Virus record (IMG/VR): IMGVR_UViG_3300008050_000105
Span: 1-41,927 of that record
Source of the DNA: a virus
Length of the DNA stretch: 41,927 bases
Direction: 5' to 3' (one strand)
A program made the translations under genes and the position numbers. Of the stretch, positions 12,926 through 36,545 are shown in pieces. The notes beneath the pieces were generated by a model. The model was not told the origin of the DNA. It did not search any database and was given only the letters and a program-made list of their open reading frames with translations. Numbering within the stretch: position 1 is the stretch's first letter; every line of letters starts with the position of its first letter.

Positions 12926-15772
12926 ATGGCAAAGAAAGTAACAAATGACCCATTCCTAGAAAGAATGGAGCAGTTGCACAGTCATAAAACTGGAGCAACG
13001 AAGTCACAACGTGTTGTTAAGACTCTAAATCTGAAGAGATTCCAGTATAGGAAGGGTTCGAAACGTAATTTAGTCAAAAACCCAGTCGAGAATAAGATTT
13101 TAATGAGGATTGCAATACCTCCGACTCCAGATTTCCGTGAAACGATCTATACAGATGAAGTATTACGTTATTCTCCGTCCTTTGTACATGCAGGGAACCC
13201 TATCAAATCCTCGATTTTGAAGGATAACTACATTTCTGCAGAGAAAATTAAAACAATTAAGGCATATTTCAATCAGATTATTGAAGAAACGTCAGCTAAA
13301 GTCTCAGAAGAGACTGGTCCTTCCTGGAATTACAAGAGGGAATCATATCCTTCTGGGAAAATCCTCAAAGACAAGAAGGGTAAGCCAATTAAAGAGTTTC
13401 TTCAGCATGATATTGTAGAACGTGGGAAGATGACGTACCACACACGGAAAAAAGGAGAATTTGGGAAATTAGGTCCAGATGCACAGAAGCTTCAATCAGT
13501 AAAAGATCCTGCAAATGCAGAAAATGTGGTATCTACGCCTTTTGCCAAAGGTACTTCTCAGACAACATTCTCATTGAAACCTACTGGCGATAAATGGACT
13601 CCATGGGAAAAACTTGAACAATTCTTCAAAGAAGCATTTTCACAGGCAAAGGAAACAGGACAATATACGGTTGAAACAAGTAAATTGAAGCAGCGACAAG
13701 GAAAACCTCAGTTTGATACGAATATCATCATTAGTGAACAGGCATTTAAAGATATTTTTCGGAATGAAGTGATACCGATGCTGTTTGCCAAAGCGGATGA
13801 TCCCAATAGTAAGTTCAATTTTGGAAGTGCAGATCCAAGTACACCACGTAAAAATCTTGAATCGCTACAAGCAGATAAGGTTATTTCAAAAGAAGGTTTA
13901 TTATTGGATGCCAAGAATCCTCTTAGCTATGATTTCCGATTTGGAGAAGCAAGAGGAAGCGATGATATTTCTTTTAATGAAACAATTGGACTAGGGAAAG
14001 AAGCATGGGGTGATGCATCCAAAGATATTAAAGGAGAAGGTTATTCTTTAGGAACCCATAAAACAGGAACAGATACTTCTGAAGGAGCATTAAGCAGGGG
14101 TATAGGTGTTCCTCCAGGATATATAGGCCGTGGTGGTCCTGAATATACAACAACAAGGAATTTAGGCAAACAACTGCTTCTACCTGTTATGGAAGAAGTT
14201 TCTGTTTCAGAGACTATGAAATTAGATCGCTTTGACGAATCTGATATAAACATCAAAAATCAGAAACAATATGTCAAATTATTGGATCAAGTTCTTGAAG
14301 AAGCAGACAAGATACAAAAAGTTCAAGCAGGTTCTGCAACAGGGTGGGATAATGAAATAGATATTAGTAAAGTCCATCAGCATACAGTAGATGATTTTGT
14401 AGGAAAGGATGAGAATCAGACAGTCCAGGAAGAGATGGAGCAGATACGGCAACAATACAACAACATTGTTAAAGAATACGATATTGGCAGTAAAGCTTGG
14501 CATCAGGAAACAACAAAGCTATTACAGAGGTATCAAGGAGCACAGGTAGCCCAATTAAGGGAAATCGATCCAATTCTGGCACATCTGGTCCTGCGTGGTG
14601 CTCATACTCAAAAGGGACTTAATGCTCCTGCATATGATGATTCGACTGCAGATAAATATACACTACGAGCAGGTAAATTGAGAAGAAAAGGAGAACCTGC
14701 TTATGAAACTGATCCCAAAGAAGATATACCTTTCCATTCCGTACAGAAAAGCAAAGAAATAAGTCAACGCAGGACAAAAGGGACCGACAGTGAACGGAAG
14801 CAATTGAGGGGCGATATTTGGGAGGGAGTGTGGCAGGGAACGAAAATAAAACCTAAAGAAACCTCTATGGTTGATATAGAGGAAGTTAAAGCAGCAGAAC
14901 AAAAACTAAACCTCCAATCTGAAGGAGGCTGGAAAAAGTTAGAGTATTTTGCATCAAAAGGGATTTTGAGCGAGTTCGTAAAAGGTCCAGAACCAGAACC
15001 TGCAAGTATACAACGCCAATTAACCCTATTTGAACCTAATGTGATGAGTAAGGCTTTAGAAGCTAAAGTAGCACCTTCTGAACCCATTGTTGCACCACAG
15101 TCAGAATCCTTTGTATTGACGGATAAGGTTAAACCAAAACAACTAACATTGAATCTGGAACCTGGAGAAGTACCAGATGTTAAGATAAAACCAGGAAACA
15201 TTAATCCGTATCCAAATGCAGCACATGATCCAACGATAGGTTTACAAGATCAACTAGAAGGTGGTACTCGATCCGAACCAACTAAAAGCACACGACTTTA
15301 TCAAGGCCAAACGTCACTTGAAGGATCTCCTATCGAAAAAGGTGGAATCAGTAAAGTCCAACAGAATCTGGAATATAAAGAAACCATTGATATGAAGAAG
15401 TCTAAGTTGACAGGAGATTGGATGACTCGACAGGAACAACTCAGAACAGGAGAACAAGCACTTCATGGCAAGATCAATCCTAAACTGGGTATCTTCAGTT
15501 TTGGAATGGGATTAATGACAGGACCTCTAAGTGCAGGAGTTGCTTACAAAAATGTACAAAGATTAAACGAGCAGGAAGCACTTTATGGATTGGGTACTGA
15601 TGGTGCAACAGGTCCAGAACCTTCATGGGGGAATCTAGGAGCACCTGTTACAGAAGAAGATTTCAAACAAGAGTTCTGGAGCAGAATGACTATGGGGATC
15701 ATACCATCCGTACAGCAATTACGATGGCAACGTCAAATGGACCCAGGAGCAGGTATTAGCCCAGATGCTTGA
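12926..15772 (+). CDS. 948-aa hypothetical protein between terS and terL
   Basis: A large hydrophilic protein with no recognised domain. The first 330 residues look folded; the rest is rich in Glu/Gln/Lys helices (QTVQEEMEQIRQQYNNIVKE around 500). Near the C terminus are three related short motifs: RQLTLFEP (Q698-F702), KQLTLNLEP (about 739) and QTSLEGSP. QLTLF resembles the bacterial sliding-clamp binding pentapeptide. A weakly hydrophobic segment (IFSFGMGLMTGPLSAGVAY) lies near residue 850. It overlaps terL by 8 nt, so the two are coupled. It could be a virion or packaging accessory protein; position is the only functional clue. Confidence 0.75.
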   Translation: MAKKVTNDPFLERMEQLHSHKTGATKSQRVVKTLNLKRFQYRKGSKRNLVKNPVENKILMRIAIPPTPDFRETIYTDEVLRYSPSFVHAGNPIKSSILKDNYISAEKIKTIKAYFNQIIEETSAKVSEETGPSWNYKRESYPSGKILKDKKGKPIKEFLQHDIVERGKMTYHTRKKGEFGKLGPDAQKLQSVKDPANAENVVSTPFAKGTSQTTFSLKPTGDKWTPWEKLEQFFKEAFSQAKETGQYTVETSKLKQRQGKPQFDTNIIISEQAFKDIFRNEVIPMLFAKADDPNSKFNFGSADPSTPRKNLESLQADKVISKEGLLLDAKNPLSYDFRFGEARGSDDISFNETIGLGKEAWGDASKDIKGEGYSLGTHKTGTDTSEGALSRGIGVPPGYIGRGGPEYTTTRNLGKQLLLPVMEEVSVSETMKLDRFDESDINIKNQKQYVKLLDQVLEEADKIQKVQAGSATGWDNEIDISKVHQHTVDDFVGKDENQTVQEEMEQIRQQYNNIVKEYDIGSKAWHQETTKLLQRYQGAQVAQLREIDPILAHLVLRGAHTQKGLNAPAYDDSTADKYTLRAGKLRRKGEPAYETDPKEDIPFHSVQKSKEISQRRTKGTDSERKQLRGDIWEGVWQGTKIKPKETSMVDIEEVKAAEQKLNLQSEGGWKKLEYFASKGILSEFVKGPEPEPASIQRQLTLFEPNVMSKALEAKVAPSEPIVAPQSESFVLTDKVKPKQLTLNLEPGEVPDVKIKPGNINPYPNAAHDPTIGLQDQLEGGTRSEPTKSTRLYQGQTSLEGSPIEKGGISKVQQNLEYKETIDMKKSKLTGDWMTRQEQLRTGEQALHGKINPKLGIFSFGMGLMTGPLSAGVAYKNVQRLNEQEALYGLGTDGATGPEPSWGNLGAPVTEEDFKQEFWSRMTMGIIPSVQQLRWQRQMDPGAGISPDA

Positions 15773-23379: not shown

Positions 23380-23997
23380 ATGGCGGGTGCTGTTGATATT
23401 TGCAATATTGCGTTGACCAATCTTGGTGAACAAAAGATTGTTTCTCTTGATGAGAATAATGAACGTGCCCGTCTAAGCAAACTTAGGTTTGATGACGTAC
23501 GGGATACCGTGCTGCGACTCCATCCGTGGAATTGTGTCACGGCCCGTACTATCCTAAACAGAGACACAGATACTCCTGCATGGGGGTATACCTACCAGTA
23601 TTCACTACCCAGTGACTGCATCAGAGTCCTTGCAATCCATGATGCAACTATTGCATATAGGATAGAAGGATCAAAACTCCATACAGATTCAGGAACCATA
23701 AAACTGAAGTATATTCAAAGACCTTCTGATTTGACGGTTCTTGATGCAAATGTAGTCAATCTCATTGGGATTCGACTTGCATGGGAGTTGGCAGAACCTC
23801 TAACTGCCAAAACTGCTCTTAAAACTGAAATGTGGCAGAAGTTCACATTAGAGTTGGCAACCACCAGAAGTATGGATGCCACAGAAGGGACACCAGAATA
23901 TTTTCATGGTTCAACATGGTTGGATGGAAGAATGGGTGCATTCACTGATCCATGGAAACCTATTGATGCACCTGCAGAAGGTTATTCTAAAATCTGA
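23380..23997 (+). CDS. Tail tubular protein A, T7 gp11-like
   Basis: A 205-aa protein of the gp11 gatekeeper family. Typical pattern: VDICNIALTNLGEQKIVSLDENNERA, then DVRDTVLRLHPWNC and YTYQYSLPSDCIRVL. It forms the ring below the portal and connects to the nozzle. T7 gp11 is 196 aa. GGAGG lies just upstream. It overlaps the next gene by 1 nt (TGATG). Confidence 0.88.
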   Translation: MAGAVDICNIALTNLGEQKIVSLDENNERARLSKLRFDDVRDTVLRLHPWNCVTARTILNRDTDTPAWGYTYQYSLPSDCIRVLAIHDATIAYRIEGSKLHTDSGTIKLKYIQRPSDLTVLDANVVNLIGIRLAWELAEPLTAKTALKTEMWQKFTLELATTRSMDATEGTPEYFHGSTWLDGRMGAFTDPWKPIDAPAEGYSKI

Positions 23998-26900
23998 TGG
24001 CAACTAAGTATCGGGTTCAGAACAGTTTTGCAGCAGGAGAACTGTCACCCAAGATGCATGGTCGGTATGACACCGAACTGTACAAACAGGGGACTAAACA
24101 GATGAAGAATTTTGTTCCTCTTCTTCAAGGTCCTGCAAAGAGAAGACCTGGAACCTATTATGCTGCTGATGCCACAACAAACACTTCAGAGGGTTCAAGA
24201 TTGATTCCTTTCCATTTTGGAGAATCAGATAGTTATGTTTTAGAATTCAGTAATAACAAGATCCGATTCTTCACTCAGAATGGTCAGTTGAAAGAGTCTG
24301 GTTCTGTAGCATCAATAGCAATTGCGGGAGGTACTGGATATACGGCAGGGACTCTAACTGCAACAGGAGGAGGTGGAGTTGACGATTCCAACGAATTCGC
24401 AGGAACTTATGGTATTAATGGGATCGCTATGACCCCCAGTGTAAGCACCCCACCCTCTGTTGATACGATTGTCCATGGCAGTGATCATGACGAAGGAACC
24501 TACGATGGGGTTTCCTTAACTGGTGGAACAGGAACTGGAGCAAAAGGCACGGTTCATGTTGATTCTTCGGGTGAAGTTTTCCTTGTGATCGTCACGGATG
24601 CAGGATCTGGTTATGTGGTTAATGACACTTTAACGATCTCAAAAGACACCATTGGAGGTGCTGCAGATGCGACTTGTGATGTTGCAACTATTATCAATAT
24701 GGGAGCTGCAACTATAACAAATCCTGGGAAAGGTTTTACTTCTGCTCCTACGATAGTAATAACAGAAGGATCTGGTTCTTCAGGGACAGGAGCGACTGCA
24801 ACTGCTACTTTGGGTAGTGACAATGATAACCCTTATGAACTAACAACGACTATTTCAGAAGCACAGACCAAGACCTTTGATTTCACACAATCTGCAGATG
24901 TAATCTATATTGTTCATCCTGATTTCCAACCTAAAAAACTAGCTAGAACCATTGATGCAACAAATGTATTAAGAGCAGCAGATGATACAGTATGGACCCT
25001 AAGTGATGTTGATTTTGAAGATGGTCCATGGGATGAAGTCAATACGGATAATGCCAAATTAGTCAAGGTTACGGCAGTAACAGGAAGTGATTATGCTTGG
25101 ACAGCAGTAGACGGAGTTGGTGTAGACACAACCCAGAACCGATTTACTCTTTATGGTCATGGTCTAATGAATGGGATGAAGATTCAGTTCCCTACAGGAA
25201 CAGGTCTAAGCCAAGGGAACCTAGTAACTGCAGATTCTACTTCTGAGTCTGAAACATTATTCCCCACACTTGCTACAGAATATTTTGTTGTAAATGCACA
25301 ATCATCTTCTTTCCAGATTGCTACAGAAGCAGGTGGCTCTCCAATAGAGTTTAAACTTTCCAAGCTGAATAATCTTAGGATTGACTCGGTTACTATCACA
25401 GAAGGAGGAACAGGATATGGTGCTGATGTAGCTCACGGAGATTCTACTGGAAATAAATTAACTGCTACTAGCACTACTGGAGGCTCTGGGTTTGCTGCGA
25501 CTTTTGAAACAAATTCCTCTGGTACAATTGATGGGACAATTAATATTAGTAACAATGGGCGAAATTATGGAAATGCAACTATTGACATTGTAGATGCATC
25601 AGGAACAGGTGCGAAGTTAACGCCCGTTATAGGAGATGCATCAGTCGTTGAATGGACAGGTAAGTTAGATCTTGAAAAGAAAGTCATTGCAAAAGATAAG
25701 GTCTGTACTATTACAGCGTCTGGACACTCTTTTGATGCTGAAGATACTGAACGTCTTATCAGAGTCAATGTATTTGCAGGATCAGAAGCAGAAAAAACCA
25801 AGGGTATACGTTGGGCATGGTTTAAAATAACAGCAGTGGCAGGAGGACTCGGATCAATTACTGCAACATCTCAAGGTGAAGTAGGTATTGTTGATGTCGA
25901 TACTCGTGAATGGAGGATGGGTATTCTGGGAGGGGATAATGAGTGGCCTAGTTGTATTCAAATCCATCAACAACGTCTTGTAGTAGGTTCTTCGACCCAA
26001 TATCCCACTACAGTTTGGTTATCAGAAGCAGGGGATTTCCATAGTTTTGCTCCTGATAGCAAGATTGGTATCTCTACAGGTGCATCTGATTCCATTGGTC
26101 AAACGATCATGGGAGAGCAGATTCTAGATAGTAATGCTATCAGTCTGACCATTGATTCGGATACTGTAGATGAAATCTATTGGATTGCTGAAGGAAAGAA
26201 ACTCTCACTAGGTACTTCTGGAGGTGTCTTCAATCTCTATGGTTCAGAGAATAACTACACTATTACTCCTACCAACTTCTCTATCATACGTGATACATCC
26301 TGGGAAGCAGCAGATGTTAAGCCTGTAAGGATTGGTAATGCCATGATCTATGTACAGTTTAACAAACGGAAACTCCGTCTGCTTACATTCAGTGGAGAAG
26401 ATGTCCAATATGAGTCCAGAGAGATCTCATATCAGGCAGATGAACTGGTAGGTAAAGAAATGAAAGAGATTGTCTATCAGAAACAACCTCATTCCTTGAC
26501 ATGGTGCCGTATGGAAGATGGGACTCTTGCATCCATGTCTTTTGAGGACACATTAGAAGTAGTAGGATGGGGTCAACATGAAATAGCAGGAGTCAATGGA
26601 ACTGAAACCGCTGGTGTTTGGAGTATTCAGCATGGCGAAGTTGAATCAATGGCAGTCATTCCTGGAGGAGGACGGGATCAATTATGGATGATTGTTAGAA
26701 GAAATATAAATGGTGGCTTTGTCAGATATGTCGAATTCCTTGAAAAGTTCTATGAACCTACTGAAACGACACAGGATCTTGCACATTTTGTAGATTGTGG
26801 GCTTTATAAGACTGATTCTTCAGAATTCACTACTGCAAACTACCTGCATCTGAAAGCTGAAGAACTAAGAATCCTTGGAGATGGAGCAGTACAACCCAAT

Positions 26901-27308
26901 GCAACAGTTAATTCTTCATCAGGAGTTCTGACAATAAATACAGCAGTTACAAAACTGGTTGCAGGACTACCTTATAACTCAGAATTGACCTGTCTGACTC
27001 CTAAACAGGCTGTAGACGGAAGTTTATTTGTAGTTGGTAGGGATAGGGTGGTAAAGGCTCATCTTCTCTTACACGATACTCTAGGCGTTAAAATAGGACT
27101 ATTCGGCCAAGATGATGATGACCTGGAAGAATTCATTTTCCGCTTAACACAGGATGATTTGAATACGATGGTTCCTTTATTTACAGGTAATAAAACAGCA
27201 AATATCTTGAGCAGATCCTTGGATGAGGAACAAATCAAGATTCTATGCGATCAGCCTTTTCCAATGACGCTGGTTGCTCTTGTTTCTGAACATGAAATGA
27301 ACGTCTGA
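23997..27308 (+). CDS. Tail tubular protein B (nozzle), T7 gp12-like, with beta-repeat insertions
   Basis: An 1103-aa nozzle protein. The N terminus (VQNSFAAGELSPKMHGRYD, MKNFVPLLQGPAKRRPGTYY) is diagnostic, and the C-terminal half contains ILGGDNEWPSCIQIHQQRLV. T7 gp12 is 794 aa; the extra length comes from inserted Gly/Thr-rich repeats at about 105-275 and 460-545 (GGTGYTAG, GSGYVVND, GKGFTSAPTIVITEG, GGTGYGAD). An intervening module reads LYGHGLMNGMKIQFPTGTGL. Such insertions would project from the nozzle and may contact fibres or the cell surface. It abuts the internal virion genes. Confidence 0.88.
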   Translation: MATKYRVQNSFAAGELSPKMHGRYDTELYKQGTKQMKNFVPLLQGPAKRRPGTYYAADATTNTSEGSRLIPFHFGESDSYVLEFSNNKIRFFTQNGQLKESGSVASIAIAGGTGYTAGTLTATGGGGVDDSNEFAGTYGINGIAMTPSVSTPPSVDTIVHGSDHDEGTYDGVSLTGGTGTGAKGTVHVDSSGEVFLVIVTDAGSGYVVNDTLTISKDTIGGAADATCDVATIINMGAATITNPGKGFTSAPTIVITEGSGSSGTGATATATLGSDNDNPYELTTTISEAQTKTFDFTQSADVIYIVHPDFQPKKLARTIDATNVLRAADDTVWTLSDVDFEDGPWDEVNTDNAKLVKVTAVTGSDYAWTAVDGVGVDTTQNRFTLYGHGLMNGMKIQFPTGTGLSQGNLVTADSTSESETLFPTLATEYFVVNAQSSSFQIATEAGGSPIEFKLSKLNNLRIDSVTITEGGTGYGADVAHGDSTGNKLTATSTTGGSGFAATFETNSSGTIDGTINISNNGRNYGNATIDIVDASGTGAKLTPVIGDASVVEWTGKLDLEKKVIAKDKVCTITASGHSFDAEDTERLIRVNVFAGSEAEKTKGIRWAWFKITAVAGGLGSITATSQGEVGIVDVDTREWRMGILGGDNEWPSCIQIHQQRLVVGSSTQYPTTVWLSEAGDFHSFAPDSKIGISTGASDSIGQTIMGEQILDSNAISLTIDSDTVDEIYWIAEGKKLSLGTSGGVFNLYGSENNYTITPTNFSIIRDTSWEAADVKPVRIGNAMIYVQFNKRKLRLLTFSGEDVQYESREISYQADELVGKEMKEIVYQKQPHSLTWCRMEDGTLASMSFEDTLEVVGWGQHEIAGVNGTETAGVWSIQHGEVESMAVIPGGGRDQLWMIVRRNINGGFVRYVEFLEKFYEPTETTQDLAHFVDCGLYKTDSSEFTTANYLHLKAEELRILGDGAVQPNATVNSSSGVLTINTAVTKLVAGLPYNSELTCLTPKQAVDGSLFVVGRDRVVKAHLLLHDTLGVKIGLFGQDDDDLEEFIFRLTQDDLNTMVPLFTGNKTANILSRSLDEEQIKILCDQPFPMTLVALVSEHEMNV

Positions 27309-27309
27309 T

Positions 27310-27876
27310 ATGGCAGCTTGGTGGTTAGGTGCAGCAGCTTTTGCTCAATTTGCTTCAGGAGTAGGCAAAGCTAATGCTATTAAAAGAAGTTCTTATGCAG
27401 AAGCAGATGTCGATGAAGCATATGCTGATGCAATCCTTAGAAACCACTTCAGTAATGTCCAAAGACAACGTGATAACCTTTACGACTTTACTACAAAAAG
27501 AATGGATCAGGGTGGTCAACAGTTGGCGTTGGCTGCTAGAGCAGGTGATCAGGCAGTTGGTAAAGTCAGAACTGCAACAACATCTTCGGGAGCCATCTCT
27601 GAGATGGGTACTACCCAGGATGTGCAGGTCGAACAAGCCTTTGATGCATGGTACAACCAACAACAGGTTGCTATGTCTACTCAAACAGATGTTGAATCTG
27701 CAACTAGAGGTTACAACCAATGGATGGAAGCAGACTATGAACAAACCATGATGTCCTATAATAACCTTTATGCATCGGCTAGAGCTAAACGATCAGGTGC
27801 TGACGATATGTGGGGTGCTAATATATTCTCATCATTAGCTAATGCAGGTGGAACCTACGCAGCAGGAAAAGCATGA
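27310..27876 (+). CDS. Internal virion protein, T7 gp14-like
   Basis: A 188-aa protein with an Ala/Gly-rich hydrophobic N terminus (AAWWLGAAAFAQFASGVGKA) and C terminus (SSLANAGGTYAAGKA) around a helical, Gln/Ala-rich core. Size and position after the nozzle gene match T7 gp14 (196 aa), which is ejected to form the outer-membrane part of the DNA translocation channel. It overlaps the next gene by 4 nt (ATGA). Confidence 0.72.
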   Translation: MAAWWLGAAAFAQFASGVGKANAIKRSSYAEADVDEAYADAILRNHFSNVQRQRDNLYDFTTKRMDQGGQQLALAARAGDQAVGKVRTATTSSGAISEMGTTQDVQVEQAFDAWYNQQQVAMSTQTDVESATRGYNQWMEADYEQTMMSYNNLYASARAKRSGADDMWGANIFSSLANAGGTYAAGKA

Positions 27877-30800
27877 TTATTCCAAGACAGTATTTTAATC
27901 AGCAGACTCCTCAAGCACAGATGCAACAGGCTCCTATGACTCAGGCTCCTCAAAGAGGAACTGCAAATACAGGCCGTGCAAAAGCAGAAGAGTCTCTCTT
28001 TGAAAGCATGGAAGGACTCTTTGCAAAGCTTGGAGGGGTTGCTGCAAAGGTGGAGAAGTCCAATCGTGAAATGGAATTCCAAGAGCACAAACAAATCCAA
28101 AGCGAACAAACAGACAGAGAATTAGATGATTTCAGAGAACAAGTCTTACCATCATGGGAAATAACAAAACTAAATGCGAATTCTGTAATAGATTATTTTA
28201 AAGAAGGGGAAAAAGGACCACAATGGGGCACAGCCCAAAAATTATCAAGTGATGACAAGACCAATCGTAGATTACAAGTAGAGTTAAAAGCTCAACGTCA
28301 ACAGGCAATTAGGATTGCTGTTTCAGCAATGAATACTGAACGTAATGATAGAGCAGTTGCATTGATGACAGATGGAGTTACGGCCTTGTCGCAAAAATAT
28401 GCAGCTAAACTTTTCCAAGGAGGAGATGGTGATCCAGAAGGTTTTATTGTAGCTTTTAACAAAGAGTTTGAATGGATTAAAAAAGATGGGTTTTTAGGTA
28501 AAGATCGATATAACACGGAACTTAGCAGGATAAGAGCATATTTTTCCCAAATAAGAGCAACTCGGGATTTTGGGATGTTTCCAGATAAGATGTCTGAGTT
28601 GACATGGAAAGAAGTAGTAAATAAATATACGGATGCAGCAGGGATTGGTCCAAGTATGGAACATTTATTCCCGTTATGGCAAGCAAATGTAAATGCCAAA
28701 AAAACAAATGCTTATGTTGATTTGAAAGGTTATATACAAGATCCGTCTGTACGCCCATTTACAAGTAAAGAAATGATGGAAATAGGTCAACCTCTATGGG
28801 ATTCAGTAAAATCAGAACATAAAACGGATTTAAAACGTCTGCAAAAGCAAAAAGAGAATTCATGGGACTTCCAAAAGACCCTTCTTTATTTACGTGCTGA
28901 TATAAACAATCCTAAAGCAGGGCAATTCGCAGCATTAGTAACATTGGATGTCAGGTCAAATTATTCAGGAGATGGTAAATACACATGGCGACCAAATGCT
29001 AAAAATATAACAAAATGGTATCCAATACCTGAACAAGCTCAACAGGTCATGACACTTGTAAAACAATATATAGATTCAAAAGAATCTAGTATTCAAAAGC
29101 AGGGGGTAATTGACTCAGAGAAAATTATCAACAAAATTAATGATAATAAAATACCAATTGACGAAATTCAAAATGAATTAGATGCAAATATCGGTATCGG
29201 AGACAAAGGACGAATTCAACTGCAAGGTTTTATTGATCAACGCAAAAGATTAGACACAGAAAGTAGAGCAGAGCGTATAATAAAACAAAATCTAAATTCT
29301 GAAGAAAAAAAACAGACTTTTATTACTAATTATAATGCGGTTATGGAAGGGGGTTCCCCAAAAGAAGGAGTACAACCTCAAAATGATCAACAAAAAGCAA
29401 TTCTAAATGCAGATCTAAATACTGTGAGTGATTTATATCGCATGGCTAAAGGTGATGCTAGGGCATTAGTTCAAGCAGGTGATGAGGCTGATATACGTCT
29501 TGGGTTATCTAAAGTTAGGTCAACAGTTGATTTAGATAAAATGCTCGGTACTTTAAAGGGCCGAACAGATCTTGATCCTACATTTAAGAAAAATCAGTTA
29601 GCTATACTGCATGGAGCAAGAGAAAATTATGAAAAAATAGAAAAAGTAGAAACAGATCGGAAAACTAATATAAGGCAAGCAAATGTTTCATTAGGTTTAG
29701 GAAATAAAATCAAAACCAGCCAAGATCCTGAAACCTTACTTACAGATGAAGAAATAAAAGATGCCGATATCACTGATAATCAGAGACTCTATCTTACAGG
29801 AATACGTGATCTTAAAAAGATACAATTAGAAACGCAGGATAAAGGAGATGCAGATAGTCTAGAAGCAGCAATCCTTATAGGAAAAGCAATCAAATCAGAA
29901 AAGCCTTCGGATGCAAGGAACTTGATCCAAACTGCCAAAGCAAAGATTAAAGACCAAATAGTACTTCAAAATCTGGAAAACAAACTGTTGGAGTTAGAAA
30001 AAGGATTGAGATTAAATAAAGAGGATGAAGAGAGAAGAATAAAAGAAAAAGATCAGTCTGTATTATATGCAGATCTTGATAGACAGATTCAAACGAAGTC
30101 GTCAGACCAAGATCTAGCGTCTCTGTCTACTGAAATTAATCAGTTAGTAGAAGAAGTAAATCCACTGCAAAAAATTGCACTAGAATTACGTCTTGAATTA
30201 AAAAAAGAGGCGGTCAAGTCACAAAAGAGCACAAAAGAGGCTAAATATGATAATGAACAAGATCGTGCTGACGATGCTCGTGTAAGGGAACAAATAGATA
30301 ACCATGTCCAAAAGAATGATCCTTCTAAATCTTTAAAACCAATAATTGATGAACTCTTTAATAAAGAGAAGGTAACCCAACGATTTCCAGAAGGAGAACC
30401 TGCATGGTATATCAATCTTCGTTCACATGCGACCCAATCAAGAACATTTCTTAGAAAAGGAGAACAAAAACGAGGACTAATAAAATATGTACGTAAAAAC
30501 TGGAAAGAATATCTAGGGATGACAGAAACACAAAAAAAAGCAAAATGGAATTTATTATTTGATTTTGATAAAGCTGATACTTATGCGTCTAAATTAAAAG
30601 ATCAACATACCCCTGACCCTTATGACAGTGCAAAACTAACATATGATTTAGATGCTTATACTAATTATCTTCGTAATCAGATATATAATCCCAATACAAA
30701 TCTTACTAATCCATTAAATGTTCCTGATCATGAAGGACGTTCATTAGGAGAAAGATTAGGTAGTTTCCGATCTCCATTTGACAAACTTAAAAGTTGGCAG

Positions 30801-31385
30801 GAACGTATTCGGTTGAATATCGAATCTGTTGTACGGATGATAGAACCTAAACCCATAGAAGATGCTATAAATGCTTTAAGCAAAGAAGTAAGTAAAGATA
30901 TGCATAAAGAGAAACTGTTTAAAGTATATTCAGATATAGCAACTGAAAGATTAGAGGATGTGAGAAAAGATCCTGGTGGAACCGAAGCTGATGATATTAT
31001 TAATGCTAAAGAGACTGGAGAAGTAATAAATACTAATTTTGCTGATTCATCAAAATGGAGACAAATAGATTATGTGCATGATGGAGATACACTTTTTGTC
31101 GATGGAGTAAAATTCAGATTAGGAAATGTTGATACAAAAGAACTGGGAAGACCCGACCAAGCAGGAGAAGCGACAAGAGATGCACTTAAGGATTATTTAA
31201 AAAATCGTAAAGTAAGAATGGAAGTCTATGGAACTGGAGAATTCGGTAGACCACTAGTATATATCTTTACCGATGATGGATTGATGCTAAATAAATGGTT
31301 GATTGATCATGGTCACTCGGAATTTATTGGTGGATTTGGTGGTGGGAAATATCAAAACCGGTTAAGTAGTGAGTATGCACAATGA
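27873..31385 (+). CDS. Internal virion protein with C-terminal staphylococcal-nuclease domain
   Basis: A 1170-aa protein in the gp15-like slot. Residues 1 to about 1040 are highly charged and helical, with a Gln-rich N terminus. Residues 1062-1165 form an SNase (thermonuclease) domain: DGDTLFVDG (D1072), FRLGNVDTKE (R1082, D1087, E1090) and GEFGRPLVYIF (R1126). These match D21, R35, D40, E43 and R87 of S. aureus nuclease in identity and order, and R-to-D-to-E spacing is exact. The domain should be a Ca-dependent DNA/RNA nuclease, probably carried in the virion and ejected. No lytic transglycosylase domain is visible. Overlaps of 4 nt join it to both neighbours. Placement among ejection proteins is confident; delivery of the nuclease is inference. 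Confidence 0.82.
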   Translation: MIIPRQYFNQQTPQAQMQQAPMTQAPQRGTANTGRAKAEESLFESMEGLFAKLGGVAAKVEKSNREMEFQEHKQIQSEQTDRELDDFREQVLPSWEITKLNANSVIDYFKEGEKGPQWGTAQKLSSDDKTNRRLQVELKAQRQQAIRIAVSAMNTERNDRAVALMTDGVTALSQKYAAKLFQGGDGDPEGFIVAFNKEFEWIKKDGFLGKDRYNTELSRIRAYFSQIRATRDFGMFPDKMSELTWKEVVNKYTDAAGIGPSMEHLFPLWQANVNAKKTNAYVDLKGYIQDPSVRPFTSKEMMEIGQPLWDSVKSEHKTDLKRLQKQKENSWDFQKTLLYLRADINNPKAGQFAALVTLDVRSNYSGDGKYTWRPNAKNITKWYPIPEQAQQVMTLVKQYIDSKESSIQKQGVIDSEKIINKINDNKIPIDEIQNELDANIGIGDKGRIQLQGFIDQRKRLDTESRAERIIKQNLNSEEKKQTFITNYNAVMEGGSPKEGVQPQNDQQKAILNADLNTVSDLYRMAKGDARALVQAGDEADIRLGLSKVRSTVDLDKMLGTLKGRTDLDPTFKKNQLAILHGARENYEKIEKVETDRKTNIRQANVSLGLGNKIKTSQDPETLLTDEEIKDADITDNQRLYLTGIRDLKKIQLETQDKGDADSLEAAILIGKAIKSEKPSDARNLIQTAKAKIKDQIVLQNLENKLLELEKGLRLNKEDEERRIKEKDQSVLYADLDRQIQTKSSDQDLASLSTEINQLVEEVNPLQKIALELRLELKKEAVKSQKSTKEAKYDNEQDRADDARVREQIDNHVQKNDPSKSLKPIIDELFNKEKVTQRFPEGEPAWYINLRSHATQSRTFLRKGEQKRGLIKYVRKNWKEYLGMTETQKKAKWNLLFDFDKADTYASKLKDQHTPDPYDSAKLTYDLDAYTNYLRNQIYNPNTNLTNPLNVPDHEGRSLGERLGSFRSPFDKLKSWQERIRLNIESVVRMIEPKPIEDAINALSKEVSKDMHKEKLFKVYSDIATERLEDVRKDPGGTEADDIINAKETGEVINTNFADSSKWRQIDYVHDGDTLFVDGVKFRLGNVDTKELGRPDQAGEATRDALKDYLKNRKVRMEVYGTGEFGRPLVYIFTDDGLMLNKWLIDHGHSEFIGGFGGGKYQNRLSSEYAQ

Positions 31386-32857
31386 AAGAACGATACCATT
31401 ACAAAAATTTAGGGCAGACAATAACAGCACATCCTGAAATAGCTGAACTTTGGAGGAAACCATGGAAAAAATTAGCAACAGATATTTTGCAAAGCCAACT
31501 ATTAGGATTGGCTGATCCTAATGTGGATATTGGAATTTGGAACGATATTTTGGGGATTAAAACGCCACAAATGCTCCGATGGAATAGAGATGAGGATCTA
31601 GCTATTAAAGATTATAATGATCGTGAAGCACATTTTGATACCAAAGGGGATTTTTACATGTGGACGGTAAATAGATTATGGGATGATTTAGAATATTATC
31701 CTGAAGTCAAACAGGATTTGTTCCATGCAAGGAATATAAAACCTGATGATCAAATTAAAAATGAAGATATACGATCACACTTAAACAGCAACCCATCAGG
31801 ATATCATTTAGAAAAAAATGATGCAGATAAACAGAAACATTTTGAGACTATAAAACAATTAGCAAGTTCTTATATACAGAATTCAGGTTACAACGAATAC
31901 AGTGCTATAAGTCGTGCAGTTAAAAGTTTATATGGTTGGACAATAGTAGGAAGGGATGAAGACACAGGGTCTTATCACGGTTTATCTACATCTGCTGCAA
32001 GAGAATATGATTTAAGCCCTGAACAAATTGTATCAGGAGCCAGAAGACGTATTGCTGAAACTTTGATGAATGTAACAAATATAAATCAATTAGATGTTTT
32101 AGGTTTTAAAGAATCTCTGACACCATCACAAAAAAGAACGTTTTTAGAAGAAGCTTTTAAATCTCGTGGAACAGTTCAAATAGATGTGGCTCCTGCAATG
32201 GATGGTAATGGCTGGATGACAGTTATAAAAAAATATAAAGAAATCGAAAATTCCTGGTGGTTTAATGATTGGAACCCAACCAGCATTCAAGGACTTCTGG
32301 TTGTGGATGGGAAGCATCACGTTGCTGATGAAAAAGAAATACAACGATTAGCCTTATCAGAAGAAATAGTTGTTGGGCTTCAACAGATATATGAATTACC
32401 AGGACCACGCCTTGGAGGATCTACGATCTGGGAAGACCTAATGACTCATGAAAAAGAATACTTAGGTAGTGGTGGTAAACCACCAACTAAATACAACATA
32501 TCAGGACAACAATTTCCAGCTACGGATTTAATGAAAGGATTTTTTTTAGGAGCACCACTAGGATCACCACAAAGTTACAGTAAAGGTCAGGTTGATTTTG
32601 TCATTAAACCGATGATTGAACATTTCAGAGGAAATATTGGAGAACGATATATGCCTGAACCTTCAGACACAGAAATGCGTGCTTACATAGATAAAGAATT
32701 AAAAAAACATGGGAGTTTTAGGAGCAAATTCGTTGAATATTTAAAGGGTGCTCCTTTTTTAGGTAGTTGGCTGGATGATGATTTTTATGAAGGAATAAAA
32801 GATAATCCTCCATTTGATCCTTCTCGTTCTCATTTTATGCATGCACGAGTCAGATGA
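31382..32857 (+). CDS. Hypothetical internal virion protein, 491 aa
   Basis: A soluble, aromatic-rich 491-aa protein without a recognised domain. It lies between the nuclease-bearing ejection protein and the gp16-like proteins, coupled to both by 4-nt overlaps. The C terminus (DDDFYEGIKDNPPFDPSRS) resembles the short Pro/Asp tails common in virion proteins. A role in the ejectosome or core is inferred from context. Confidence 0.65.
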   Translation: MKERYHYKNLGQTITAHPEIAELWRKPWKKLATDILQSQLLGLADPNVDIGIWNDILGIKTPQMLRWNRDEDLAIKDYNDREAHFDTKGDFYMWTVNRLWDDLEYYPEVKQDLFHARNIKPDDQIKNEDIRSHLNSNPSGYHLEKNDADKQKHFETIKQLASSYIQNSGYNEYSAISRAVKSLYGWTIVGRDEDTGSYHGLSTSAAREYDLSPEQIVSGARRRIAETLMNVTNINQLDVLGFKESLTPSQKRTFLEEAFKSRGTVQIDVAPAMDGNGWMTVIKKYKEIENSWWFNDWNPTSIQGLLVVDGKHHVADEKEIQRLALSEEIVVGLQQIYELPGPRLGGSTIWEDLMTHEKEYLGSGGKPPTKYNISGQQFPATDLMKGFFLGAPLGSPQSYSKGQVDFVIKPMIEHFRGNIGERYMPEPSDTEMRAYIDKELKKHGSFRSKFVEYLKGAPFLGSWLDDDFYEGIKDNPPFDPSRSHFMHARVR

Positions 32858-33963
32858 TGTTTAGACAATCCTATACATATGCAAGACCAGATATTTTAAA
32901 AAAAACACTCAGAGGATATCGTCCTGGTGGGATGGGGACTTTTACAAGTTCTGTATCTGAAGGGTTCCATCAAACACCTGTAGTACAAGCTATTGAATGG
33001 TTACAATATGGAATGGCAGGTAGTGATTTTTATTCAAGTCCTGAAGCAACAAGACCAGTAACAAAAAATGAATTCCAAGAGTTCGTTGGTGATTTACCTA
33101 TTCAATACGAAGAAGGGGTCACATTTGGACAAATGGATATTCTTAAAAAAGAACATGCTAGAGAACAAGCATATGGATGGTTTAATCAAAATGTTGGGAT
33201 GTGGGAACCTTCTAGGATAGGAGGATTCTTAATTGGCTCATTACCTGATCCTTTGATGTTGATGCCTATGAGTGGTTTGGTATCAAGAATGGCAACTACA
33301 GCAAGGGCAATAAATAGAGGTATGGGAATAGGATTAAATGGATTCAAAAAACCAATAGGTAATGTGCTAAGGACAGGAACTGAAGCAGCATTATTTGCAG
33401 GTATTGCAGAAGCAACCATATTAGTGCCAAAAAAAGAAAAATTCCAGCAACCATGGGGATGGCAACAGGCTTTGGTTGATGTAGGTTTTGCTTTCGGTGC
33501 TGGAGCTTCTTTGAGTGCATTTGCTCAAGTAGCACCATCTATAATAAAAGCCCCGTCTTATTTTAAATTAGGTGCTCTTACAAAAGTATCCAAAGATCTT
33601 GGTGATGGAGAATTAGGCTCTGTTATGCCTAATGATTACAAACCTAAAGGTCCTAATGATTCTCTAACTCCTGCAGGACAACGCTATCCTGACCATAATA
33701 TTACTCCAGAAGAGATAGCTGGTCAGGCTACTCAAGATGCAGATAGAGTCTTAAGCAGACCACAACAAGAACTAGAATCTATAAGAGCTAATGAAACTAT
33801 AGATACATTCATTGAAAGTGCAGGGGATGCAATTGACAGTATTGTAACACCAGACTTTCAAAGGAAACTTACTGATTTTGGAGGATCTATAGTAAATAGA
33901 TCCGCAGATGAATTGGAAAAGATCATTAATTATAGTATTAACTGCTTTAAAAAGAATCGATGA
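32854..33963 (+). CDS. gp16-like internal virion protein, N-terminal part
   Basis: A 369-aa protein with two hydrophobic regions: RIGGFLIGSLPDPLMLMPMSGLV (about 125-147) and ALFAGIAEATILVP (about 183-196). These patterns are usual in the N-terminal third of large podovirus ejection proteins. The next gene carries the usual C-terminal part, so the two may be one protein divided at 33949-33963. Stop and start overlap (ATGA), which allows reinitiation. Either a genuine two-gene arrangement or a one-base loss in an A5 run explains it. ATG 32857 is an alternative start. Confidence 0.68.
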   Translation: MMFRQSYTYARPDILKKTLRGYRPGGMGTFTSSVSEGFHQTPVVQAIEWLQYGMAGSDFYSSPEATRPVTKNEFQEFVGDLPIQYEEGVTFGQMDILKKEHAREQAYGWFNQNVGMWEPSRIGGFLIGSLPDPLMLMPMSGLVSRMATTARAINRGMGIGLNGFKKPIGNVLRTGTEAALFAGIAEATILVPKKEKFQQPWGWQQALVDVGFAFGAGASLSAFAQVAPSIIKAPSYFKLGALTKVSKDLGDGELGSVMPNDYKPKGPNDSLTPAGQRYPDHNITPEEIAGQATQDADRVLSRPQQELESIRANETIDTFIESAGDAIDSIVTPDFQRKLTDFGGSIVNRSADELEKIINYSINCFKKNR

Positions 33964-36545
33964 TTTGTGCAAGTAATTTAGCAAAAAGATTCAAGATCAG
34001 CTTTGATGAAGCTGCAGATGTTATAGATTCTATCAAGGATCTAAATCTTGATAAACTCACGGCACTTGGTCCTGAAGCTGCAAAACGACAAGCCTTTCGT
34101 CTTCATTCCACACAAGTAGCCAGGAATTATTTAACATCCCGAATACCATTCTTCCAGAACCTTATGTCTGGTTCTAGTAATGAAGTGTATAAAAAAATAT
34201 ATGGTTTTTTAGAGAATGCAGCCAAAGATCAAGATACTCGTAGAACTAATCGTATGGGTAGGATCTTCAATGCATTATCCTTTGATAGAAAACTGTTCAG
34301 CAGGAAATCTTCAGACAAAGCATTCCAGGAAGCTACAGTAGAAGAAATGCTCCCATTTACGGGGAAACAAAAAGGAGACAATTCGGAGGCATTTGAATTC
34401 AGTCAGGCATCATTCAATGAAAAGAAGGCACAAGTAGGAGAAGCAAATCAATATGGAGCAGGGATGCTCTGGAGGGATGACCATCTTACACAGCAATGGC
34501 ATGATCAAATCAGGATGGTATCAGCAGGTAAGAAGCAATGGGTTGATTATGTCCATGACAGGGTTGATTTTGAAAAGTCCTTTGATGTTAGAGGTAATTC
34601 ATTTGCAGATATGACAGAAACTGCACGTAAAAGGTATTTGAATTCTGTATATGATGCAATTACCAAAAACATCGACGAATTTGACTGGTCTGGGAATATA
34701 ATGAATAAGTCTTTAAATAAAAGACTACAAATGACCCGTCATTTACAGTTAAAGGATAAGACAGCATGGTTGGAATACAATAAACAGTTCGGACATGAGA
34801 ATCCTGTAGAAGCCATTATATCAGGAATGGATGTAATGGATGATAGAGTAGTCCTTCTTAAAGCATTCGGGAGTAATCCTAAAGAAGCATATAAATATTT
34901 AAGAAAAAGGATGGAAGGTGAGAAGATTTATATAGATAAGGCAGGGATTGTACGTGAATGGAAACAATCTGATCTAATGGATCTAGAGGGTCAATGGAGA
35001 GCATATGGGCATGATAAGCACCCTGACAGCTTAGATAGTGCAAAAGTTGCAGCATTGGAGCCTGATGCACAATTGAAGGTAGTATATGCCAAATCAAAAT
35101 GGAATGAGATGGTGGAAAATGCTGATGCAGCAAAAGCAAAACCTGTGAAACTATCAGGATGGCAACGTGATCAGTTGGATTCATTGTGGAAACAGGTGTC
35201 AGGAGAAGCTTATGTAGTAGGTCGACCTTCAGTAGCAAAGTTTATGAGGGGGATGCATTCATGGTTGATAACAACAACTATGGGCAAGTCAATGATCTCA
35301 TCCTTTGGGGATTTTGCATCAGTTGCTGTTAATCTGCACAGTCATGGAAGAGGGTTCCTTGGATCATATGGAGACATAATAAGTGCATTCCGTGCCCGTT
35401 TAGACAAGATACAGAGCAAAGCAGAACGTGAATATGTCTTAAACCACATAAATGTAGCACTAGAAGGGTTTATGCAGTCAACGCATAGTCGTTATGCATT
35501 TGGCGAAAGATTGAACCGTGGTGCTCAATTGATGTTTGATATTAGTGGATTAAATGCTTGGACAAATACATGGAAGGAAGTATGGGGTAGGTCTATGTCA
35601 ATGCATCTTGCTCACAAGATGAAAACAAAGTGGGCAGATCTTGATCCTTTATTGAAGAAAACATTGAAGGAACATAGATTCCAGGAAAAAGATTGGTTGG
35701 ATCTACAATCAGCAGGTTCCTTTTCTTTGAAAGAAAGAGTTAAAAATAATCCAAACTTCAAAGATGTTGAAGTAGGAAGTGAAAGATTTATAACATCGGA
35801 TTGGGTCCGACAGAAGATTGATGGGAAAAAGGGGGAACGTCTGGGGTTTATGCTAGATAGGTTCTTCCAAAATGAAGCAAGGGCAGCAGTCCCTACACCT
35901 GATGCAATGGATCGTGCATTTATGATGAGAACCTTCCAGAGAGGGACTGTTCCTGCAGTAGTTGCACAAATGATCTTTACATTTCGTTCACATCCAGTAG
36001 TAATGGGACGGAAAGTACTGCCACGTATGTGGGAAATGGGACTTCCAAGCTTGCTACACCTCACTCCAATGATTGGATTAGGTTATGCTTCGCTTGCAGT
36101 AAAAGACTTGATTAAAGGAAAGGAACCTAGAAGACCAGATAACCTCAATACAGTATTAGAGTCAATAGTACAAAGTGGGTTTGCTGCAGGTATTGGTGAC
36201 TTTTTACTTGAAGAGGTTGGTAGACATCATTCATCCTTTGATGAAACTCTACTTGGTCCACATTACGAATTCTTTAAGGACGTTGCATCGCTAGGTAAGG
36301 GACTGGCGACTGGGCAGGACGGTGCTGCTGATGCATGGAACATGATAAGGGAACGGACTCCGTTCATGAACCTGTTCTATACTGAATTAGCATACAATTA
36401 CTTGGTCCACTATCAGGTAATGGAAACACTGCAACCTGGATATACCCAGATGGTTGAGAACTGGAGCAAAGGTGTTGATCAACAACAGTATATTGATGCC
36501 TTACGTCCAACCAATTTTGTCTCTCATGGAGGTCCTTTCCGATGA
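33960..36545 (+). CDS. gp16-like internal virion protein, C-terminal part
   Basis: An 861-aa helical protein. The C-terminal third has a pattern recurrent in large podovirus internal virion proteins: RAFMMRTFQRGTVPAVVAQM, IFTFRSHPVVMGRKVLP, LTPMIGLGYASLAVKDLIKG. The protein lacks a folded N terminus of its own, starting in mid-helix (ASNLAKRFKISFDEAADVID). Together with the 369-aa gene it would make about 1230 aa, close to T7 gp16 (1318 aa), but without gp16's transglycosylase domain. Only a weak A-rich ribosome site precedes the ATG. Overlap with the fibre gene is 4 nt. Confidence 0.72.
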   Translation: MICASNLAKRFKISFDEAADVIDSIKDLNLDKLTALGPEAAKRQAFRLHSTQVARNYLTSRIPFFQNLMSGSSNEVYKKIYGFLENAAKDQDTRRTNRMGRIFNALSFDRKLFSRKSSDKAFQEATVEEMLPFTGKQKGDNSEAFEFSQASFNEKKAQVGEANQYGAGMLWRDDHLTQQWHDQIRMVSAGKKQWVDYVHDRVDFEKSFDVRGNSFADMTETARKRYLNSVYDAITKNIDEFDWSGNIMNKSLNKRLQMTRHLQLKDKTAWLEYNKQFGHENPVEAIISGMDVMDDRVVLLKAFGSNPKEAYKYLRKRMEGEKIYIDKAGIVREWKQSDLMDLEGQWRAYGHDKHPDSLDSAKVAALEPDAQLKVVYAKSKWNEMVENADAAKAKPVKLSGWQRDQLDSLWKQVSGEAYVVGRPSVAKFMRGMHSWLITTTMGKSMISSFGDFASVAVNLHSHGRGFLGSYGDIISAFRARLDKIQSKAEREYVLNHINVALEGFMQSTHSRYAFGERLNRGAQLMFDISGLNAWTNTWKEVWGRSMSMHLAHKMKTKWADLDPLLKKTLKEHRFQEKDWLDLQSAGSFSLKERVKNNPNFKDVEVGSERFITSDWVRQKIDGKKGERLGFMLDRFFQNEARAAVPTPDAMDRAFMMRTFQRGTVPAVVAQMIFTFRSHPVVMGRKVLPRMWEMGLPSLLHLTPMIGLGYASLAVKDLIKGKEPRRPDNLNTVLESIVQSGFAAGIGDFLLEEVGRHHSSFDETLLGPHYEFFKDVASLGKGLATGQDGAADAWNMIRERTPFMNLFYTELAYNYLVHYQVMETLQPGYTQMVENWSKGVDQQQYIDALRPTNFVSHGGPFR

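Follow-up and report, generated by a model that had tools for sequence, protein, structure and literature searches.

Why would a short-tailed phage end a large protein, encoded between its tail tube and tail fiber genes, in a nuclease domain? The question is raised by IMG/VR record IMGVR_UViG_3300008050_000105, a virus contig of 41,927 bases that was analyzed over its full length (here called the window; all positions are those of the whole contig). The phage is of the short-tailed podovirus type and is known from metagenomes only. Its plus-strand block opens with a small terminase (phrog_2538), a 948-aa product, the large terminase (phrog_2) and a portal/head-tail adaptor (phrog_332), followed by a protease (phrog_458), the major head protein (phrog_3437) and the tail tubular proteins A and B. 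Downstream of tail tubular B lie genes for proteins of 188, 1170, 491, 369 and 861 aa and for a tail fiber of 1152 aa with a Peptidase_S74 domain, while the minus strand carries RecT, exonuclease, replication initiator and ParB-like genes. The reading frame of the 1170-aa protein is uninterrupted, and the original prediction had assigned its end to the staphylococcal nuclease (SNase) family and the protein itself to the ejection type.

Two further features of the contig were observed. The 948-aa ORF (12926-15772, plus strand) sits between the small and large terminase genes, an unusual site for so large a protein, and matched no Pfam or PHROG family. In tail tubular B, two segments (24332-24705, plus strand) match L012 and L013 in swapped order, and the protein measures 1103 aa in the window versus 844-846 aa in the contigs L007 and L008; on these alignments, it is a tail tube protein with a rearranging insertion. 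A scan of genomes with tail tubular B, seeking the host, gave no match.

The C-terminal domain was recognized by sequence, profile and predicted fold. Pfam finds one domain only in all 1170 aa, SNase (PF00565), at 21.9 bits (E=2.6e-4) for the whole protein. A search of the protein tail alone gave 25.4 bits (E=2e-5), both scores being above the curated cut-off of 21 bits, and the 'endonuclease' family phrog_452 matched the tail at E=4.1e-11. Furthermore, a profile built from five sequences (the domain of the window, those of its three homologues and that of a free phage SNase) retrieved staphylococcal nuclease structures from the PDB at E=9.6e-15, covering SNase residues 14-131. An AlphaFold2 model of the domain alone (pLDDT 76, pTM 0.71) was matched by Foldseek to staphylococcal nuclease with E=1.5e-7, a probability of 1.00 and a TM-score of 0.70. 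These results agree with one another and confirm the C-terminal ~109 residues (about 1062-1170) as an SNase domain with a predicted SNase OB-type fold; the location (31056-31385) and family given in the original prediction were correct. The C-terminal end falls near SNase residue 131 in all four homologues. The idea that this short end acts as a switch that folds only on binding was dropped because a free phage SNase (L092) stops even earlier.

Table 1 Features of the window around the SNase-ended gene
Feature	Position	Strand	Basis or remark
Tail tubular proteins A and B	23380-27308	+	phrog_394, phrog_376; identify the module as part of a podovirus tail block
188-aa protein, gp14 slot	27310-27876	+	Position
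1170-aa protein, gp15 slot: variable scaffold, predicted all-helical, with C-terminal SNase	27873-31385	+	Homologues in L007, L008 and L009
Apparently exchanged cassette, ~5 kb	28066-33092	+	No blastn similarity to L009/L013; lower G+C
SNase domain, residues 1062-1170	31056-31382	+	Pfam PF00565, phrog_452, PDB profile match, predicted fold
D1070-G-D1072 codons (SNase D19, D21)	31080-31088	+	Alignment; invariant in four homologues
R1082 codon (SNase R35)	31116-31118	+	Invariant in four homologues
D1087-T1088-K-E1090 codons (SNase D40, T41, E43)	31131-31142	+	D1087 is N in L007 and L009
R1126 codon (SNase R87)	31248-31250	+	Invariant in four homologues
491-aa protein	31382-32857	+	4-base overlap with the SNase gene; co-varies with the SNase protein
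369-aa protein	32854-33963	+	Contains the right cassette border
861-aa protein, virion structural/putative internal virion protein	33960-36545	+	phrog_684

The fusion is shared by three other IMG/VR contigs (L007, L008 and L009), which have a matching gene order and encode SNase-ended homologues of 1165-1210 aa with 23-31% identity to the window protein. An assembly chimera is thereby ruled out, since all of them carry the identical architecture. The tail of the L008 homologue is unambiguous (PF00565, 50.1 bits, E=4.4e-13); L007 and L009, searched as whole proteins, score 20.0 and 15.3 bits and lie under the cut-off. In all six homologue pairs the domain is more conserved than the scaffold, with identities of 43% versus 28% between the window and L008, 34% versus 19% between the window and L007, and 78% versus 70% between L007 and L009. 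No homologue of the scaffold was detected beyond the clade: an alignment-based scan with the 1170-aa protein returned no homologue, and a search of the phages collection no match. Among 50 records bearing phrog_684, the Pfam SNase search found the fusion in three clade members only, plus one free SNase (G025). On 32 representative proteins encoded just upstream of phrog_684 genes, Pfam detected no SNase, SLT being found in three and GH108 in one.

In the phrog_684-bearing G025, the free SNase is a 135-aa ORF (L092:1363-1770) just before a chitinase-type endolysin-like ORF, and stand-alone SNases are frequent in cyanophages. Searched against a plasmid collection, the L008 domain (L008:7090-7455) has relatives on 4822 records, 3889 of them predicted to be conjugative. 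Carrying an SNase may be common among DNA-transferring elements in general.

Comparison at the DNA level delimits a cassette around the domain. The window is 94-95% identical to L009 and L013 up to position 28065 (codon 65 of the 1170-aa gene), and blastn similarity resumes at 33093, at about 80-82% identity, inside the 369-aa gene. The G+C content is 0.34-0.37 within this stretch versus 0.42 just upstream. Due to this gap between conserved flanks, the 1170-aa and 491-aa genes appear to have been exchanged together, as a block, between phages, and the SNase was kept by both cassette versions. The 491-aa protein shows 26-41% identity in phages whose neighboring genes are 85% identical. It evolves as fast as the SNase protein, suggesting that it may be a physical partner of the latter.

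Each residue of the SNase catalytic set has its counterpart in the window copy by alignment (Table 1), as the original prediction had claimed, and the core positions D21, R35, D40, T41, E43 and R87 are likewise complete in L008. Across the four homologues, five of these six core positions are invariant, compared with 20 of the 109 domain positions (hypergeometric P=0.0007). The set is therefore retained in the relatives at these five positions but not at D40, a metal ligand in SNase, which is N in two of the four. Between L007 and L009, pN/pS, a measure that is only rough here because synonymous differences are near saturation, is lower in the SNase segment (0.215) than in any other segment and stands at 0.256 overall. 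The segment is therefore under purifying selection even with D40N. From these alignments, we infer that the 1170-aa protein would be capable of SNase-type catalysis.

The D40N substitution is also what chiefly speaks for the leading alternative, in which the SNase-like domain is a non-catalytic, nucleic-acid- or protein-binding OB domain of the conduit that grips the entering DNA or docks the 491-aa partner. Loss of D40 would weaken metal binding in L007 and L009, a fold search with the full-length model retrieved SND1 structures among others, and the SN domains of SND1 serve in binding; the co-variation of the 491-aa protein points in the same direction. However, D21, R35, T41, E43 and R87 stay invariant at an overall identity of 23-31%, the catalytic set is complete in the window, in L008 and in the separate fusion of Aeromonas phage phiA008 described below, and selection for binding alone need not retain E43 and both arginines. 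We therefore regard a purely binding domain as doubtful, yet as the rival to be taken most seriously.

The position of the 1170-aa gene corresponds to that of an ejection protein gene. It comes immediately after tail tubular B and a protein of gp14 size, a place like that of gp15 in T7, and the order from tail tubular A and B to the tail fiber matches the internal-protein block of T7, Pelagibacter phage HTVC035P and Pseudomonas phages. Pelagibacter phages have relatives of the 861-aa protein that are labelled 'putative internal virion protein'; those of Pseudomonas phages bear the label 'virion structural protein', and the slot protein there is labelled 'endolysin'. The 188-aa protein was negative against T7 gp14 by hhalign, and its L008 relative gave a sub-threshold T7_gp14 match (E=0.013). 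In Vibrio phage VC8, the positional counterpart of the 1170-aa protein is ORF17 (694 aa), located between a 132-aa protein and ORF18-ORF19, of which ORF19 is the phrog_684 relative; mass spectrometry detected ORF17 in virions (PMC4802629). The 1170-aa protein probably also resides in the phage head and enters the host together with the DNA.

Sequence comparison with known ejection proteins gave a different picture. Hhalign and profile comparison of the 1170-aa protein with T7 gp15 and gp16 was negative, and neither the HTVC035P slot proteins nor the 32 slot proteins of phrog_684 phages showed convincing homology to it. The full-length AlphaFold2 model is almost all helical ahead of the SNase domain, at low confidence (pLDDT 67.7, pTM 0.29), and Foldseek matched it to a T7 core protein only weakly (E=0.19). 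In BFVD, most matches were to phage proteins 500-1200 aa in length (E about 1e-5 to 1e-2, low TM-scores), several of them named for NlpC/P60, SLT or GH108 domains. Because the T7 profile comparison was negative, 'gp15-like' denotes here position and a predicted all-helical scaffold, and the protein is therefore classed as working like an ejection protein rather than as a gp15 homologue. Gene order thus bears out the proposed place in an ejection-protein module, whereas the term 'ejection-type' fits gene order and predicted scaffold but finds no profile match to T7 gp15 or gp16. In the window's own module, no murein hydrolase was recognized. Given the SLT and GH108 heads at the same slot in relatives, the SNase therefore appears, from its position, to stand in for the peptidoglycan hydrolase that elsewhere serves as the enzymatic head.

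The reading that we prefer, with a probability of roughly 0.45, is that of a conduit-forming ejection protein with a catalytically competent C-terminal SNase that is packed, ejected and cuts nucleic acid outside the lumen at entry. More specifically, the 1170-aa protein would be packed in the head, leave the particle ahead of the DNA or together with it, and help to build the conduit that takes the DNA across the host envelope. After ejection, the nuclease head would sit at the end of this conduit that lies in the periplasm or at the inner membrane, where it could cut nucleic acid outside the lumen, the phage's own DNA being shielded inside the channel. The most plausible target would be non-self DNA, such as that of phages co-infecting the cell or arriving later, with host nucleic acid less plausible, although the data themselves favor no particular substrate. 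Within the virion, the packaged genome might be spared because the head is poor in Ca or because the protein is folded differently until ejection; refolding upon ejection is described for T7 gp15 and gp16 (PMC8954989).

This entry nuclease is supported by the sequence, profile and fold of the domain, by catalytic conservation at 23-31% identity combined with the lowest pN/pS, and by the gene order together with the presence of VC8 ORF17 in virions. The SLT and GH108 heads of relatives, the lysozyme of gp15-like proteins (PMC8954989) and the phiA008 fusion add to this support. It is weakened by the lack of sequence similarity to T7 gp15/gp16 or to the slot proteins of relatives, and by D40N in two of four homologues.

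Other roles for an active enzyme are improbable. The nuclease could work for the phage inside the producing cell, in replication, packaging or maturation rather than at entry, and stand-alone phage SNases are indeed common outside virion modules, but the fusion partner here is a protein of the internal-virion block and not a packaging or replication gene product. To about the same degree, it is unlikely that the nuclease is delivered to the cytoplasm and degrades host RNA or chromosomal DNA in an early host shut-off. SNase-type enzymes are usually sugar-nonspecific, and delivery with the DNA would permit action ahead of gene expression; however, the C-terminal head of a periplasmic tube protein would miss the cytoplasm if the geometry of T7 gp15 holds, and the copy number would be low. 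Least likely of all is a non-virion, late cytoplasmic protein encoded in the tail block by chance, a view that draws on the clade-restricted scaffold and on the indirect case for virion presence but is opposed by the gene position between tail tubular B and the phrog_684 protein and by the virion location of the VC8 counterpart (PMC4802629).

Enzymatic domains on ejection proteins are already known. Domain swapping among ejection proteins is described in a review, with the lysozyme activity of the gp15-like proteins of K1E and K1-5 as one case, and the term 'nuclease' is absent from the review's text (PMC8954989). For an SNase or thermonuclease on ejection or internal virion proteins, no report was found in the open-access literature, in line with the earlier statement that the fusion is not known as an established system; since the search covered open-access literature only, this absence is not proof. 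If the enzyme is active, the virion would send a nuclease through the conduit of its own genome, which makes the protection of self-DNA a testable question. Activity would also point to a way of excluding rivals, or of attacking nucleic acid during entry, for which no gene has to be expressed, and would mean that podovirus ejection proteins carry a wider range of enzymatic heads than peptidoglycan hydrolases alone.

SNase domains were also found in other giant phage proteins. In the cultured Aeromonas phage phiA008, an SNase with the whole catalytic set (E=7.9e-7) lies at residues 28-112 of a 2050-aa protein with matches to the virion structural families phrog_30152 and phrog_6958; this giant protein had no match in IMG/VR. 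As in the window, the SNase is fused to a large protein, but it is N-terminal, on another scaffold and in another phage type, and the fusion apparently arose independently. Two giant families without an assigned function carry internal SNases, phrog_8809 at about 1098-1220 of 2317 positions and phrog_37474 at 169-282 of 2087 positions. Speculatively, virion-borne entry nucleases could be a recurrent strategy in which unrelated phages fused an SNase to conduit-forming or giant virion proteins, so that the first entrant destroys competing nucleic acid in the envelope before gene expression. Its members would be the present clade (C-terminus), phiA008 (N-terminus) and possibly the two PHROG families.

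Several known systems share part of this design. Polyvalent proteins are likewise large, thought to be delivered with the phage DNA and equipped with enzymatic conflict domains, but they carry several (2-15) such domains per polypeptide, compared with one in the window protein; neither 'staphylococcal nuclease' nor 'SNase' occurs in the text of the paper describing them (Iyer et al. 2017, PMC5512222). In P22-like phages, the ejection proteins gp7, gp20 and gp16 are highly variable and mosaically exchanged between otherwise similar phages, and changes in them overcome SieA superinfection exclusion (PMC10883804); they belong to other protein families, and the passages of that study considered here report no nuclease domain. 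With the staphylococcal nuclease/thermonuclease family, including the free phage SNases of phrog_452, the window domain shares sequence family, fold and catalytic set, but the free enzymes are small and stand-alone, whereas here the SNase is the last part of a protein of the virion module that is about 1170 aa long, and two homologues carry D40N. The T7 ejectosome (gp14, gp15 and gp16) resembles the window in block order, with a gp14-sized and then a large protein, predicted to be helical in the window, after tail tubular A and B, and differs in gp15/gp16 sequence. T7 and its relatives also bear enzymatic heads on their ejection proteins, but where T7 gp16 carries a transglycosylase, the window protein carries an SNase.
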